Assembly: GCF_039596395.1 (NCBI RefSeq)
Contig: NZ_JBCNJT010000001.1
Location: 903,315 to 967,314 of the forward strand
Origin: Fluviicola sp.
GTDB taxonomy: Bacteria; Bacteroidota; Bacteroidia; Flavobacteriales_D; Crocinitomicaceae
Direction of reading: 5' to 3'
Length of the DNA stretch: 64,000 nucleotides
The position numbers and the translations under genes are program-made. Positions 47,127 through 53,277 of this stretch are shown here, in pieces. The notes under the pieces are model-generated. The model made no database searches. It was not told where the DNA came from and worked only from the letters and a program-made list of their open reading frames with translations. Numbering within the stretch: position 1 is the first letter of the stretch; every line of letters starts with the position of its first letter.

Positions 47127-47188
47127 CGTTTAAAAAGTTTAAGAGTTCAATTGTTTAAACTTTGAACCCGTTTAAACCTATTGAACTA
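47127..47188. repeat. GTTCAAA/TTTGAAC hairpin 6
   Basis: GTTTAAAAAGTTTAAGAGTTCAA is followed by TTTGAACCCG, TTTAAACC and TTGAACTATTTG. It fills the gap between the NADH dehydrogenase gene and the sensor kinase gene and overlaps the assumed TTG start of the kinase. Confidence 0.5.
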
Positions 47189-50100
47189 TTTGATACTTAA
47201 TCTTAAAACCGTAGTTTTGATTCTCAATCAAAGCTGCGGTTTGCTGTTCAATCAATATATTTTTAGTCCGCCCGGGTGGATATTCTCAATCGTCTTATGG
47301 CTTTCGTTTGGTGCTTTCGGGCAACCAGGCAACGGTCAGTTCATGAATTACGGAGTGAAAGACGGGTTGTGCGAAGCGATCTGCAGTGGCATTGTCCAGG
47401 ACAGCCGCGGATTTTACTGGATTTCAACCCAGGGAGGTATCAGCCGTTTCGACGGAACGAACTTCAAGTCTTACTATCCGAGTGAAATGCTCGGGGAAAA
47501 ACAAGTGCTGGATAACTCGCGGGTTTTCTTCGAAGTATCACCGAATCGCCTGTTGGTTACTTTGGGGAACGGACAAGCTTTTATATTGAATTGCATATCA
47601 CAAAAGTTTACGCCGGTAGAAAGTTTGAAGAACCGTTATAGCCTCAATATCGAACGGATACCGGGTAACCGCTACCTGGTTTCTTCAACAGACACCCTTT
47701 TTGTTCTCGATGGTTCGTTGAAGATAATTGAATCTATTGTTCCGCCCTTAAAAAAGAAACATTTTGAAATCCGGATGCAGATGCTTGATGATTCCAGGTT
47801 CCTGGTGTCATCTACCAAAGAATTTTTCCTGTTTGACTTTAAATCCCGGAAGTTTGAGCCTTTTAAACCCGAATTACCGCAAGACGGTTTATTCAATACC
47901 GGGTACGAGATTTTGTACGTGGACCGCTACCGGAAACGGATCTATTTCCTCAATTTCTTCAAAGGAATGATAGAAACCGATTATCAGGGGAAAGTCATGT
48001 TCCACTGGGAATCCGGTGTGCTGCAGAGAGATTTGTGTGGTTTGCTGAAACAAATGATCCCGGATGGAAATAATCAACACATGGTTTGGGTTTGCGGAAA
48101 CCAGGGGGTTGCTCATCTAAACCTTGTTTCGCGGCAGGCAACTGTATTTAAACACGATCCGTTGGTCCCGTTTTCCATTGCAAGCGGATTGGTTACCGGT
48201 TTGTTTTTGGACCGTTACCAAAACTTGTGGGCCACAACCTACAAAGGAATCAGTGTGATGAACAAAAACAGCATCCTGATCGATGAATGGGATTTTAAAA
48301 CCAGTCCGGATGAACCGTTTATGAATATGTGCCGCATATCGGATCATGAATTGCTTGCGGTTAAATACGGTTCCGGGGTTTTCCGGCTTTCAGAGAAAAC
48401 CAATCGCTTTGAACCTTATCACGAAAAAGCATTGCACTATTGGTTTGCATTCAGGAATGGTGATCAGGTTATTAATGGTGGAAGAGGCACGGTTTTGAAA
48501 GTGGTGAATCTCAAGACAAACCAGGTAAAGGATTTAAACTTTTTAAAGCCCTATTTTAAACAATCGGAATTGGTTTGCCTGGGATTCCGCAGCACGGGCG
48601 GAGCTTGGTGGTTCAGTGGGAATTCCGGTGGAGGTTTGGTCAGGTATGATCCGGTAAGTCAAAAAGCAGTTCATTTTTCGCGGGATAAAAAATCATTTTC
48701 AGGATCTTATTTTACGAATTGGTCGGAAGCGCCGAATGGGGATCTCTGGTTTTCCAGCAATAAAACACAGGTAGTCACGCATTGGATCAAAGCAAGTGAC
48801 CGGTTCGAAGAAATAGACTTTGCGAAAATTTTCGAAAAACAGCATCAAAGTATTATTCAGTGCCTGGCTGCCGACAAGAAGGGAAATATTTGGCTCGGAT
48901 TTGAAGGGACAGGATTGGTGTGCTACAACATTCAGTCGCAGAAAACAACCTTTTACGGGAAGAAGGAAGGAATTACGTCCAATTTCGTTTACAACCTGGT
49001 CTTTGATGATCAGCAGCGGTTGTGGGTCGGTACAAAGAAAGGGCTGGCCTGTCTTGGTGCAGATCGAAAAACCGTACAGTATTTCGGGTTGGCGAATGGC
49101 TTTCCGTCTGAACATTTTGACCAAAGTTCCTGGTTTGATCCCAAAAACGGCATGTTGTGGATTGCCTCGGACAACTATTTACTGCGTTTTTTCCCGGATA
49201 ACCTATTGAAAACAGAAAACCGCAATTTGCAGATCTTCCTGGATGAATTCCTCGTATCGAACGAAAAACAACCACTAGAACAGGACAATGCATATGATTT
49301 TCGTCCCGATCAAAATACCGTTCAATTTACGTTTTCTACCCTGAATCCTTTGGGAAAGGAGCAGATCGAGTACAGTTATTTGCTGGAAGGATCGGATGGC
49401 AAATGGATTTCCCTGGGAACACATTCCAGTGTTATTTTCCCGTCTTTACCTTCCGGAATATACCGGTTTCATCTTCGGGCCAAAATCCCGGGAACCAAAA
49501 AATGGATTTACCTGCAGGACCCGGTCCGTTTTGAGATTGCAACTCCCTGGTTCCGTTCCTGGTGGTTCAAATTGATCGTTATCCTGTTAAGTGCAGGTAT
49601 CATCTTTCTGATAACACGCATTTATTTTCAGCGTAAGATCGAAAAGCAACGTGCGATATTGGAACGGCAGCGCGCTGTACAGAATGAACGGGACCGCATT
49701 GCTTATGACATGCACGACGACCTGGGTAGCGGACTCACCAAAATTTCGTACCTGAGCAAAGAAGCCATCCGGAAGGCCGAAAACCGTGCGGAACTGGATC
49801 GCATTAACGAAACTTCCGTTGAATTGGTGAAAAACATGAGCGAATTGATTTGGGCCATGAAAGTGGAAAACGATTCGCTTGCTGATTTGATGAGCTACCT
49901 GCGCCGCTACGCGATGGAATATTTTGAGACCAGCCAGATCGCTGTTCAAATGGAAGCGGATGAATTTGAAGAGGACCGCCAGATTTCGGGTGAGATCCGT
50001 CGACAGGTGTTTTTGATCTTTAAAGAAGCACTGCACAACATTGTCAAACATGCAAATACAGAGCGCGTGTTTATTCAGATCCGGGTGAACCAGCAATTGC

Positions 50101-50267
50101 AAATACGGATCAGGGATTATGGCTTAGGGTTAAAACCGGAAGCAGAAAGGAACAGGAGCGGAAATGGAATGAAGACCATGCAGGAGCGGACACGCCGTTT
50201 AAAAGGCCGCATGGAATTGAAGAATCATGAAAACGGAGTGGAATTGTTTTTTGAAATACCACTTTAA
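47181..50267 (+). CDS. SMP-propeller sensor histidine kinase
   Basis: The 1,028-residue protein has an N-terminal signal or anchor (WIFSIVLWLSFGAFGQ), then a two-component propeller of SMP blades (for example CSGIVQDSRGFYWISTQGGISRFDG, GLVTGLFLDRYQNLWATTYKG, VYNLVFDDQQRLWVGTKKGL), a Y_Y_Y domain (about 715-775), one membrane helix (about 790-812), and a HisKA_3/HATPase kinase. The phosphorylated His is His845 in AYDMHDDLGSGLTK, and IRDYGLGLKPEAERNRSGNGMKTM forms the ATP lid. It senses an unknown extracellular ligand. The start is uncertain: the frame opens with TTG at 47181 inside a repeat; the first ATG would remove the signal peptide. Its partner regulator follows at 50363. Confidence 0.88.
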   Translation: MNYLILNLKTVVLILNQSCGLLFNQYIFSPPGWIFSIVLWLSFGAFGQPGNGQFMNYGVKDGLCEAICSGIVQDSRGFYWISTQGGISRFDGTNFKSYYPSEMLGEKQVLDNSRVFFEVSPNRLLVTLGNGQAFILNCISQKFTPVESLKNRYSLNIERIPGNRYLVSSTDTLFVLDGSLKIIESIVPPLKKKHFEIRMQMLDDSRFLVSSTKEFFLFDFKSRKFEPFKPELPQDGLFNTGYEILYVDRYRKRIYFLNFFKGMIETDYQGKVMFHWESGVLQRDLCGLLKQMIPDGNNQHMVWVCGNQGVAHLNLVSRQATVFKHDPLVPFSIASGLVTGLFLDRYQNLWATTYKGISVMNKNSILIDEWDFKTSPDEPFMNMCRISDHELLAVKYGSGVFRLSEKTNRFEPYHEKALHYWFAFRNGDQVINGGRGTVLKVVNLKTNQVKDLNFLKPYFKQSELVCLGFRSTGGAWWFSGNSGGGLVRYDPVSQKAVHFSRDKKSFSGSYFTNWSEAPNGDLWFSSNKTQVVTHWIKASDRFEEIDFAKIFEKQHQSIIQCLAADKKGNIWLGFEGTGLVCYNIQSQKTTFYGKKEGITSNFVYNLVFDDQQRLWVGTKKGLACLGADRKTVQYFGLANGFPSEHFDQSSWFDPKNGMLWIASDNYLLRFFPDNLLKTENRNLQIFLDEFLVSNEKQPLEQDNAYDFRPDQNTVQFTFSTLNPLGKEQIEYSYLLEGSDGKWISLGTHSSVIFPSLPSGIYRFHLRAKIPGTKKWIYLQDPVRFEIATPWFRSWWFKLIVILLSAGIIFLITRIYFQRKIEKQRAILERQRAVQNERDRIAYDMHDDLGSGLTKISYLSKEAIRKAENRAELDRINETSVELVKNMSELIWAMKVENDSLADLMSYLRRYAMEYFETSQIAVQMEADEFEEDRQISGEIRRQVFLIFKEALHNIVKHANTERVFIQIRVNQQLQIRIRDYGLGLKPEAERNRSGNGMKTMQERTRRLKGRMELKNHENGVELFFEIPL

Positions 50268-50362
50268 AAATTCAAAGAGCTAGTCTTGATAATTAATAAT
50301 TAGCAAAAATCAACCGTTTGTTTCATTGTTCTTTAAAGAGCAAAGTGCGTAATTTGTAACCG

Positions 50363-50983
50363 ATGATTGGTATTTGCATCATAGAAGATATTGTCGATAT
50401 ACAACAGGGGTTGCGTTCTGTGATAGAAAGCGATGACCGGCTGCATTGGATTCGTTCGTTCGAAACAGCAGAAGAAGCCATTGAATGGATACCTAGATTA
50501 ACTCCGGATGTAGTCATTACCGATATCAATTTGCCCGGAAAGAATGGTATTGAATGTGTCCTCGAACTGAAGAACATGAATCCGGCCATTCAATTCATCA
50601 TGTTTACCATTTATGAGGACAACGACCAGGTTTTCGAAGCTTTGAAAGCAGGGGCAACCGGTTATATTCTTAAAAACACTGTACCCGAGAAAATTGTGGA
50701 GGCAATCCTCGAATTGCATGAAGGCGGAAGTCCCATGTCGCCCAAAATAGCCAGGAAAGTATTGCAGTCGTTCAGCAAAACGGAAAACCCGGTGCTGCAG
50801 CTGATTTCCAAGAGGGAACGGGAAGTCCTCGATTTACTGAGCAAAGGATACCTTTACAAGGAGATTGCCGACAAACTGAATATCACTTTAAGTACGGTAA
50901 AACGCCACCTGAACCACATCTACGAAAAATTGCAGGTCCAGAACAAAACCGAAGCGGTGAATAAACTGTACGGGAAAGGTTAA
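50363..50983 (+). CDS. NarL/LuxR-type response regulator
   Basis: This 206-residue protein has a receiver domain with the acidic pocket (IIEDIVDI), the phosphorylated Asp54 in VVITDINLPGKNG, Thr in MFTIYE and Lys in GYILKNT. A LuxR-type helix-turn-helix follows, SKREREVLDLLSKGYLYKEIADKLNITLSTVKRHLNHIYEKLQVQNKTEAVNKL. It lies 95 bases after the SMP-propeller kinase and is its natural partner. Target genes are not evident; neither the neighbours upstream nor the lipoprotein downstream shows an obvious link. Confidence 0.93.
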   Translation: MIGICIIEDIVDIQQGLRSVIESDDRLHWIRSFETAEEAIEWIPRLTPDVVITDINLPGKNGIECVLELKNMNPAIQFIMFTIYEDNDQVFEALKAGATGYILKNTVPEKIVEAILELHEGGSPMSPKIARKVLQSFSKTENPVLQLISKREREVLDLLSKGYLYKEIADKLNITLSTVKRHLNHIYEKLQVQNKTEAVNKLYGKG

Positions 50984-51092: not shown

Positions 51093-51160
51093 TCAAAATG
51101 AACCTAACGGTTGATTGACAGGTGCTTATTCACCATCTAATTTTGCTCAAAACAAAGTTT

Positions 51161-52276
51161 ATGAAGAGAAAGATGAGAGTAGTGAAGTGGGCGGTTTTGC
51201 CACTGATGTTGGTGTTTGTTTCCTGTAAAAAGAATAACCCGGAGCCGGAGGAAACTCCGCAAAACCCAACTCCGACGCCGACTAATTGTAACGTGATTGA
51301 AGTGAGCAATACGATTTCCAATCCTACAACCTGGACTTCCGGGAACGTATATGTCGTAACCACCTGGATTGATATCGATGCTCCTTTGATGATTGAACCA
51401 GGCGTGATCGTGAAATTCAAGCCCGTTGCCGGCTTGCAGGTGTATGCGAAAGTAACTGCGGATGCTTCTGCAAGCAATCCGATCATTTTTACTTCCTGGA
51501 AAGATGATAATTATTGCGGGGATAATAACGGAGATGGCACTGCCACTACAGCAAGTAAAGGAGATTGGGGATACATCAATATGAGAGGCGACCAGCATGG
51601 TTCACTTTTCAGGTATTGCAAATTCTTCTATGGAGGAGGAGATGGTGGCGGACGTGTTGTAAGAGCCGATTCAGGTACCGGGAATATTCACGATTTCACT
51701 TTCGATCATTGTACTTTCGCTCATACTTATGGCGGTACCAACTATTACACTGCTGCTTTTGACGGAGCTGAAATGAAGGATCCTTCCGTGAGTATTGTAA
51801 CGAACAATGTTTTTTATGATAATGCAATTCCGATTTTAGTAAAAGGTTATTACGCATTGGATGCAAGTAACAGTTATCACAATCCCGACAATACAAGTGA
51901 AACCAATAAATACAACGGTATTGCGGTTTATGGTTCCGGAATGCTCAACACAACGGTTATTTATTCCGAAACAGAAGTACCTTATGTGCTAAATGTAGGC
52001 GGAAATAATTACCTGAGTTCTAACGGAAGTGAACTGCTTGTGATAGGAGCGGGGGTAACTCTGAAATTCAGTTCCGGTGGAGGAATCTCCGGATCAAGCG
52101 CAGCCAATTTTACGATTGATCCTTCTGCCGTATTCACTTCTTCCAGAGACGATGCACATGGTGGGGATTCCAATGGTGACGGAAGTGTTTCTATGCCTGC
52201 AACCGGCGATTGGGATGGTGTGAGCAGAGGATCTGATGGCTGGTACTCCACCAATGTTTTTTACAGCCTGCACTAA
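51161..52276 (+). CDS. Beta-helix-like surface lipoprotein
   Basis: I chose the ATG at 51161, which gives a lipoprotein signal with Cys22 in VLPLMLVFVSCKK; a longer frame begins with GTG at 51122. The mature protein has a Pro/Glu-rich linker (PEPEETPQNPTPTPT) and a Gly-, Asn- and aromatic-rich body with repeats typical of right-handed beta-helices. It also has two Asp/Asn loops of calcium-binding look (DNNGDGTATTASKGDWG and DSNGDGSVSMPATGDWDG). The function is unknown; a surface-anchored adhesin or polysaccharide-related protein is inferred. A terminator follows at 52349. Confidence 0.8.
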   Translation: MKRKMRVVKWAVLPLMLVFVSCKKNNPEPEETPQNPTPTPTNCNVIEVSNTISNPTTWTSGNVYVVTTWIDIDAPLMIEPGVIVKFKPVAGLQVYAKVTADASASNPIIFTSWKDDNYCGDNNGDGTATTASKGDWGYINMRGDQHGSLFRYCKFFYGGGDGGGRVVRADSGTGNIHDFTFDHCTFAHTYGGTNYYTAAFDGAEMKDPSVSIVTNNVFYDNAIPILVKGYYALDASNSYHNPDNTSETNKYNGIAVYGSGMLNTTVIYSETEVPYVLNVGGNNYLSSNGSELLVIGAGVTLKFSSGGGISGSSAANFTIDPSAVFTSSRDDAHGGDSNGDGSVSMPATGDWDGVSRGSDGWYSTNVFYSLH

Positions 52277-52348: not shown

Positions 52349-52391
52349 GCGAGCGGTCGGATTATTGTAAGTGGTCCGGCCGTTTGCTTTT
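52349..52391 (+). terminator. Rho-independent terminator after the lipoprotein gene
   Basis: GCGAGCGGTCGGA and TCCGGCCGTTTGC pair with wobbles around a 13-base loop and run into TTTTAT. The stem end reaches the stop of the convergent gene at 52390. Confidence 0.75.
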
Positions 52392-53277
52392 ATCCGTTTT
52401 TCACCACGCGTACCGTTTCCCTGAATGCTTTCGACTGGATAATGATGAGGTATAAGCCGCTGTTCAAGTCGTTCAGATCAATTACCTGACGGAATGTTCC
52501 CCGGGCAATCTTGCCGGAATGGATTTCGCGGATAAACTTCCCGCTTGCATCGTATAGTCGAATATCCATGCGTTCTTTTTCAGGAGCCTGGATTTCCAGC
52601 GTGGTGGTTTCTACCGCAGGATTCGGGAACGCAAGGGCCTTGAATTCGGTTGGATAAGGATCGCCGTTTTCGTCCAGTTCCACATTTGTTGTCGTTTCTT
52701 CCAGGAAAGTCCCGTAATAGACAGGACCGATCCCACCGACCATGATTTCCGGCTCGATTTCTACTTCGGGTTCAGGTGGTGGTGCCTGTACAAACGACAC
52801 TTCGTAAGCACCCATAATGTAATTTTCTTCTACCAAAATTTCCGGAGGTGGCGGAAGAGCAATGACAGAATCCGTAACCGGAGCAAGCTCCATTTTATCA
52901 GCCTGGTCAGAAGCGATATTGTAAGCAATTTGCTGCACAGATTCGATTCTTTGCTGGTCTCTTTCATCTTCGCAGCTGAATAATGTCAGGCCGAAAACGA
53001 TCAGTAAAGCCGCGATAAACAATTGTTGCGGATTGCGTTTCTTCTGAGAAATCCAGGCTTTGAATTCTGCATTCAACGCATCTTCCTGGCTGGTAGTCAT
53101 GCGGACGCAAACGGTCTGATTGCTTAATTCCAATAAGGTTGATTTGATTTCGTTTATGGATTTATTACTGAAATCGTGCACGTGTTTGGCACATTTCTGG
53201 CAGAAAGCCCCTTTTTCAGAAGGAGTCATTTTGGTCCAGTCTTCAGAACAAGGTGTTTGGATTCCGATCGTTTTCAT
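52390..53277 (-). CDS. Zinc-finger-like protein with internal membrane segment and T9SS-type tail
   Basis: This 295-residue protein begins with a likely zinc-binding module (Cys10, Cys26 and Cys29 in TPCSEDW and FCQKCAKHVHDFS) found at the N-terminus of several Bacteroidota proteins. A hydrophobic helix at 86-101 follows basic residues and ends in LTLFSC, which resembles a lipobox (Cys102). The rest is an acidic, Pro-rich linker and a C-terminal T9SS type A-like domain (ALAFPNPAVETTTLEIQ, ending RVVKNG). There is no N-terminal Sec signal. It may be a membrane-anchored protein with a cytoplasmic zinc module and an exported beta domain; the function is unknown. Confidence 0.75.
   Translation of the reverse strand: MKTIGIQTPCSEDWTKMTPSEKGAFCQKCAKHVHDFSNKSINEIKSTLLELSNQTVCVRMTTSQEDALNAEFKAWISQKKRNPQQLFIAALLIVFGLTLFSCEDERDQQRIESVQQIAYNIASDQADKMELAPVTDSVIALPPPPEILVEENYIMGAYEVSFVQAPPPEPEVEIEPEIMVGGIGPVYYGTFLEETTTNVELDENGDPYPTEFKALAFPNPAVETTTLEIQAPEKERMDIRLYDASGKFIREIHSGKIARGTFRQVIDLNDLNSGLYLIIIQSKAFRETVRVVKNG

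Follow-up and report, generated by a model that had tools for sequence, protein, structure and literature searches.

A Fluviicola protein with a type IX secretion tail, an apparently undescribed four-cysteine head and a candidate internal signal

A 295-aa open reading frame (ORF) of Fluviicola sp. appears from its sequence to encode a variant of both type IX secretion system (T9SS) cargo and lipoproteins, one whose signal lies inside the chain and whose head domain has apparently not been described. The helix in its interior is rather likely a cleavable Sec signal, mostly for signal peptidase II (SPII) across the family, that would leave the head in the cytoplasm and turn the passenger behind it into a lipoprotein or secreted protein. 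We regard this as the best reading because peptidase-like sites recur at the end of the helix and because sister genes carry ordinary signal peptides instead. Our statements on metal binding by the head, on the membrane topology, cleavage and lipidation of this protein, and on its arrival at the surface, are inferences.

Architecture of the protein and its T9SS setting

The ORF runs from ATG to stop within a window of 64,000 nucleotides (the whole stretch of DNA analyzed) and is divided as follows, a slash in a motif marking a proposed or apparent cleavage site:

52390-53277, minus strand: the complete 295-aa ORF
53068..53277, minus strand: N-terminal four-cysteine head, residues 1-70 (C10, C26, C29, C57), predicted to be cytoplasmic
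52975..53028, minus strand: apolar helix, residues 84-101, the hydropathy maximum and a modelled helix; proposed internal Sec signal (h-region)
52972..52974, minus strand: Cys102 of the lipobox-like LTLFS/C, a conserved Cys column; proposed site of SPII cleavage and lipidation
52642..52971, minus strand: linker, residues 103-212, starting EDERD, later Pro/Glu-rich, mostly weakly modelled
52393..52641, minus strand: T9SS type A C-terminal domain, residues 213-295 (PF18962, TIGR04183, fold match)

The first-pass annotation, made from the sequence letters, had reported this ORF with Cys10, Cys26, Cys29 and Cys102, and all four residues are present as described. Its zinc module was incomplete, with a fourth invariant cysteine (Cys57) overlooked, and the choice of zinc was drawn from cysteine spacing only. 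The internal hydrophobic helix ending in LTLFSC that it noted is borne out: residues 84-101 are the sole strongly apolar stretch of the protein (Kyte-Doolittle maximum 1.99 over 19 aa), AlphaFold models a helix at residues 83-99, KKR precedes the apolar helix, and EDERD comes after Cys102. Across the 295 residues, the same hydropathy scan detected no apolar stretch near the N-terminus that could represent a Sec signal peptide, no window that begins within residues 1-30 scoring above -0.41. Residues 127-184 of the linker were modelled at pLDDT < 50, and residues 211-295 at pLDDT ~95-98. The T9SS type A-like tail proposed earlier was likewise recovered, exceeding the curated cut-offs of Pfam PF18962 (E = 2.3e-10; 41 bits against 27) and TIGR04183 (E = 4.1e-11; 42.7 bits against 23), and its model matched, in a Foldseek search of the PDB, the C-terminal domain of mirolase (8qb1), a T9SS protein, and a T9SS NucA-substrate complex (8glk_D).

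The host genome encodes a PorU sortase (1212.9 bits against a cut-off of 420), along with T9SS type A tails in at least 150 ORFs, and in this respect the protein shares the setting of ordinary type A cargo as well as its C-terminal domain, by both profile and fold. Forty tail-bearing ORFs, hand-picked from 150 so as to spread along the list and biased to shorter frames, all had an N-terminal hydrophobic stretch according to a crude script; by eye, 39 of the 40 did (L252 was doubted) and the majority ended the signal in x-A-Q or a similar site. The missing N-terminal signal, also pointed out in the first-pass annotation, is thus exceptional in this genome. It is also at odds with the statement of a review that all T9SS effectors possess an N-terminal Sec signal peptide (PMC10202324). 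We therefore call the protein a variant of T9SS type A cargo rather than a standard member, since an internal signal-like helix takes the place of the N-terminal signal, with the apparent signal some 80 residues inside, behind the four-cysteine head, and ending in an SPII-like site. A lipobox on a protein with a T9SS tail is itself odd and counts against our reading: none of the 40 sampled ordinary T9SS-tail ORFs had a clear lipobox signal peptide.

Judged as a lipoprotein, the protein has a lipobox cysteine at the end of the helix, by consensus pattern only, but the helix begins near residue 84 rather than at the N-terminus. The L-F-S-C ending and the acidic EDE directly after the cysteine are shared with Bacteroidota lipoproteins, whereas the internal position of the signal and the T9SS tail, an extra targeting element, are not. 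The acidic residues after C102 may resemble the Bacteroidota lipoprotein export signal (LES); an LES pathway is described for F. johnsoniae (PMC11885536). Among 22 full-length relatives, the Cys102 column is at least 90% conserved, and one T9SS-tail relative has GLNA/Q in place of the cysteine.

A constrained head with changing passengers

The genome contains six copies of the head: the one in the window, a tandem of three, and two single genes. When 60 genomes of the taxonomic family were queried with the full protein, 17 (including this one) returned a near-full-length match, and 54 of 60 returned some match when hits to the tail alone were counted. The head itself was detected at E up to 1e-8 in 42 of 296 genomes spread over the phylum. 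A named genome collection yielded at least 521 confirmed relatives, from which 79 loci were kept, including loci of Flavobacterium, Tenacibaculum, Winogradskyella and Polaribacter; the nearest named relatives belong to metagenome-assembled genomes labelled Fluviicola and Flavobacteriales (79-81% identity). The first-pass annotation had recommended collecting proteins with the same module and C-terminal domain, and doing so recovered this large Bacteroidota family, in which the passengers vary. Pfam assigned the passengers of 89 full-length proteins to the T9SS tail (29), CarbopepD_reg_2 (17), TonB_C (16) and CarboxypepD_reg (15), counts that overlap because these families can share members.

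The head thus reads as a recurrent Bacteroidota module with changing passengers (T9SS tail, TonB_C, CarbopepD_reg). Its bearers are annotated after the C-terminal domain alone, as "energy transducer TonB" or "carboxypeptidase-like regulatory domain-containing protein"; these share the head and the internal helix with the Fluviicola protein (and, in the TonB forms, a cleavage-like site) but carry another passenger.

Relative to the two nearest relatives, dN/dS was 0.08 and 0.07 for residues 1-70, 0.04 and 0.05 for residues 71-102, and 0.08 and 0.05 for the tail, with the linker (residues 103-205) the fastest-evolving part (0.19 and 0.18; 0.18-0.21 overall). Against a further relative (L021) the head gave 0.10, and against another (L110) synonymous change was saturated and the ratio not computable. 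Ratios of about 0.07-0.08 argue that the head is translated and kept, under strong purifying selection like the tail. They also bear on the possibility, which the first-pass annotation had raised against its own reading, that the start is mis-called or the head a fusion artefact, with a true start near M60 giving a long but ordinary lipoprotein signal peptide. An in-frame ATG60 does occur in the Fluviicola gene and in the four near relatives compared. However, Met is found at this position in only 6 of 22 T9SS-tail relatives, the cysteines are invariant across the family, and head dN/dS remains at 0.07-0.10. We therefore reject a downstream start, to which we assign almost no probability.

With a 56-row alignment, AlphaFold modelled the head as a beta hairpin followed by helices at residues 41-50 and 62-79 (mean pLDDT 80.6, pTM 0.57); the model was poor with the 22-row full-length alignment. 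No curated Pfam or NCBIfam model could be assigned to the head among the 89 members, and NCBIfam held none for the head alone. Fold searches returned a best Foldseek E of 2.2 (none up to 0.001) and a best VIA-align Z of 2.9, and the best sequence match in the PDB was to HMG proteins (E 0.081). A search of the open-licence literature found no paper that describes the head, and none on T9SS cargo whose signal is internal. The head family is apparently unnamed and undescribed, and the head probably binds metal.

In zinc-binding anti-sigma factors a Cys-rich domain in the cytoplasm precedes a single membrane helix, a layout also predicted for the Fluviicola protein, but its cysteine order and spacing differ from the anti-sigma motif. 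We rejected this identity because no sigma gene lies near the six head copies: the genome has 25 sigma-70 region 2 matches, none within ~60 kb of any copy.

A free-standing version of the head (107 aa; L195:2947-3270) is encoded on plasmid4 of the cyanobacterium Calothrix brevissima, without helix or passenger (E 1e-9, reached by way of a more distant head, L191). Its existence suggests a use for the head in the cytoplasm in its own right. At another locus (L188:1491-2015, genome G173), a 79-aa head ORF with the fourth Cys replaced by Ser ends at TGA, after which a separate ATG in the same frame opens an ordinary-looking lipoprotein signal (FLIG/C); this appears to be a split or decayed gene.

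Helix-end sites and exchange with ordinary signal peptides

Helix ends were compared across 187 module proteins that are non-identical in their first 60 residues, after removal of module ORFs < 110 aa, partial coverage of the module and first-60-residue duplicates. The 79 named loci contributed 98 new rows out of 119 module ORFs found; the search that yielded these loci had been started from the T9SS form. All 187 proteins have the four-Cys pattern. By consensus patterns rather than a trained predictor, and among related rows that include many tandem paralogues, a lipobox-like Cys lay in the 18-residue helix-end window of 157 of 187, with Leu at position -3 in 134 and Ser at position -1 in 135. 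Of the remaining 30, 27 had a signal peptidase I (SPI)-like site of the A-x-A/Q type ([AVSGTILNK]-x-[AGSYT]-Q), and 184 of 187 therefore carried one class or the other. In the label table the lipobox count is 156 rather than 157, as L105 was moved by hand to the SPI class; L100 was once scored as lipobox from a Cys inside the helix, and its helix end reads SPI-like.

Windows taken 30 aa further on contained the two patterns in 7 and 11 of 187 proteins, and shuffled site windows in 45 of 187 (lipobox-like) and 5 of 30 (SPI-like). Cysteine was tenfold more frequent per residue in the site window (0.0484) than in the rest of the passenger (0.0049). The SPI-like sites obey the Bacteroidetes Q-rule: Gln after the SPI site is a hallmark of the group, with a mean Q-value of 71% over species (PMC5837995). 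The occurrence of two peptidase-site classes at one place argues for a cleaved signal rather than a mere anchor.

Counts of the two peptidase classes differed between passengers when these were labelled by home-made profiles, with SPII:SPI counts of 72:4 for T9SS, 59:1 for TonB_C and 3:19 for CarbopepD-type forms. A tree built from the 78-residue module was weak, with at least 10 class changes on the best tree but only three independent pairs on starred branches, and a sign test of class against passenger, with only these three pairs, was too weak. The T9SS forms had a mean net charge of +1.43 before and -1.79 after the helix (72 proteins), in keeping with N-in/C-out insertion. In contrast, the 59 TonB_C forms averaged +0.68 before and +1.31 after, and in only 22% of them was the N flank more positive than the C flank; this failure of the charge rule counts against the proposed internal signal.

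Natural exchanges with ordinary signal peptides would be expected if head and helix together did the job of a signal peptide. Within module clusters at two loci (L061 and L067), genes share the C-terminal half behind the ordinary signals MKIPQLIILSLSLISIQISAYA/Q and MNSRFYLFAFLFFSTPSFS/Q: L061:9391-9924 has a signal peptide ending AYA/Q, and L067:4851-5543, with a signal ending SFS/Q, shares 51% identity with a module protein across 104 aa. In a third such gene (L061:8748-9386) the signal peptide is less clear. On plasmid pAT1 of Aureibacter, three adjacent genes are annotated "energy transducer TonB"; one of these TonB_C-like genes has an ordinary signal (LLA/Q), and its two neighbours have the head and an internal AEA/Q. 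Five tandem head proteins with TonB_C-like ends in Flavobacterium reichenbachii (L179:382-4792) read TTLFS/C in four cases and TTLFS/Q in one, where the alignment shows no Cys codon; if lipidated, the members of this array could hardly be classic membrane-anchored TonB.

The L061 locus as a whole (G026 contig 11, 134000-150000) is a tandem cluster of four head proteins and two headless T9SS-tail genes. This mixture suggests that the head has been gained and lost.

The first-pass annotation had left two readings side by side, an internal signal or a membrane-anchored receptor with a cytoplasmic sensor. The first is favored by the peptidase-like sites, the passenger swaps and the short apolar run (median 16 residues in the module family). 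The second would make it an uncleaved type II membrane protein, its head acting in the cytoplasm as sensor or output domain while the periplasmic linker and the tail monitor the T9SS (PorV binding being one way) and report secretion status to the cytoplasm, by analogy with PorA, which acts upstream of PorXY-SigP. This reading accounts for neither the alternating sites nor the swaps, and we consider it unlikely. It has in its favor that a conserved cytoplasmic head sits on an export-linked protein, and that a response regulator (50363-50983), preceded by a long sensor-like ORF, is encoded nearby. It could further draw on PorA of Porphyromonas gingivalis, which is, like the Fluviicola protein, a small T9SS C-terminal domain (CTD) protein outside the classic effector role; PorA is described as a CTD protein that can feed T9SS gene control, comprising a signal peptide, an Ig-like domain and a CTD that can be crosslinked to PorV (PMC7712824), with no cytoplasmic head. 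Against the receptor reading, a lipobox or A-x-A/Q site ends the helix in 184 of 187 module proteins, ordinary signal peptides can stand in for head and helix, the run of apolar residues is short, and a relative of the response regulator adjoins the gene in only 1 (L057) of 20 related stretches.

Proposed processing, gene context and significance

If the internal Sec signal operates as we propose, residues 1-70 would fold and remain in the cytoplasm, binding metal, while helix 84-101 would act as a signal-anchor and insert N-in/C-out into the Sec translocon. LTLFS/C102 would then undergo diacylglyceryl transfer and cleavage by SPII, yielding an N-terminally lipidated passenger with an acidic EDERD start and a T9SS type A tail that would bring it to PorV and the T9SS, or hold it there. 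In paralogues with a helix ending A-x-A/Q, SPI would release the passenger.

The same cleavage could also serve to signal, with the leftover head-plus-helix fragment telling the cytoplasm that the passenger had been exported. Constraint on the head matches that on the tail even though the head would be discarded, several unrelated passengers carry it, and the Calothrix relative shows it free-standing and without the helix, all of which are compatible with such a role; no partner gene was found, however: the flanking genes differ between genera, and the sigma-70 region 2 domain was not detected within ~60 kb of the six copies. We rate this export-coupled release as quite improbable. A role for the head in timing or permitting export of the passenger, by gating or reporting, is a guess and the most speculative part of our proposal. 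Extended to the phylum, the idea would describe a class of envelope precursors with a folded, metal-binding domain in the cytoplasm ahead of a cleavable Sec signal. Cleavage would both mature the passenger (lipidated T9SS, TonB_C or other) and free a conserved cytoplasmic fragment, and a head sensitive to metal or redox state would gate export or report on it; we offer this as a tentative and doubtful generalization.

Gene context was variable. No single partner recurs across the window and 20 related stretches, and a fixed operon partner was rejected. Adjacent to the ORF lies a conventional lipoprotein gene (51122-52276; VFVS/C) that matched no Pfam or NCBIfam family over cut-off and also sits beside a relative of the ORF in one stretch (L057). 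Beyond it, the interval 47181-50983 holds a long ORF that reads as sensor-kinase-like, then the LuxR-type response regulator at 50363-50983; such a pair also lies next to the T9SS-tail gene in L057. T9SS-tail module genes often lie between a probable rpe and a nucleotide-sugar epimerase-like gene, and in an alternative context they lie beside DUF4293 and ABC-F genes; these recurrent neighbors look like local synteny rather than a system. No match to a Bacteroidota -33/-7-type promoter was found upstream of the ORF.

Should these proteins prove to be exported, a whole class of precursors, both T9SS and lipoprotein, escapes searches that rely on N-terminal signals, and the picture of type IX cargo in which the signal comes first may have an exception. 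The family is a test bed for this, with tandem paralogues that differ in passenger, peptidase class or presence of the head. It also raises the question of why a constrained four-cysteine domain is kept on a part of the precursor that would be discarded.
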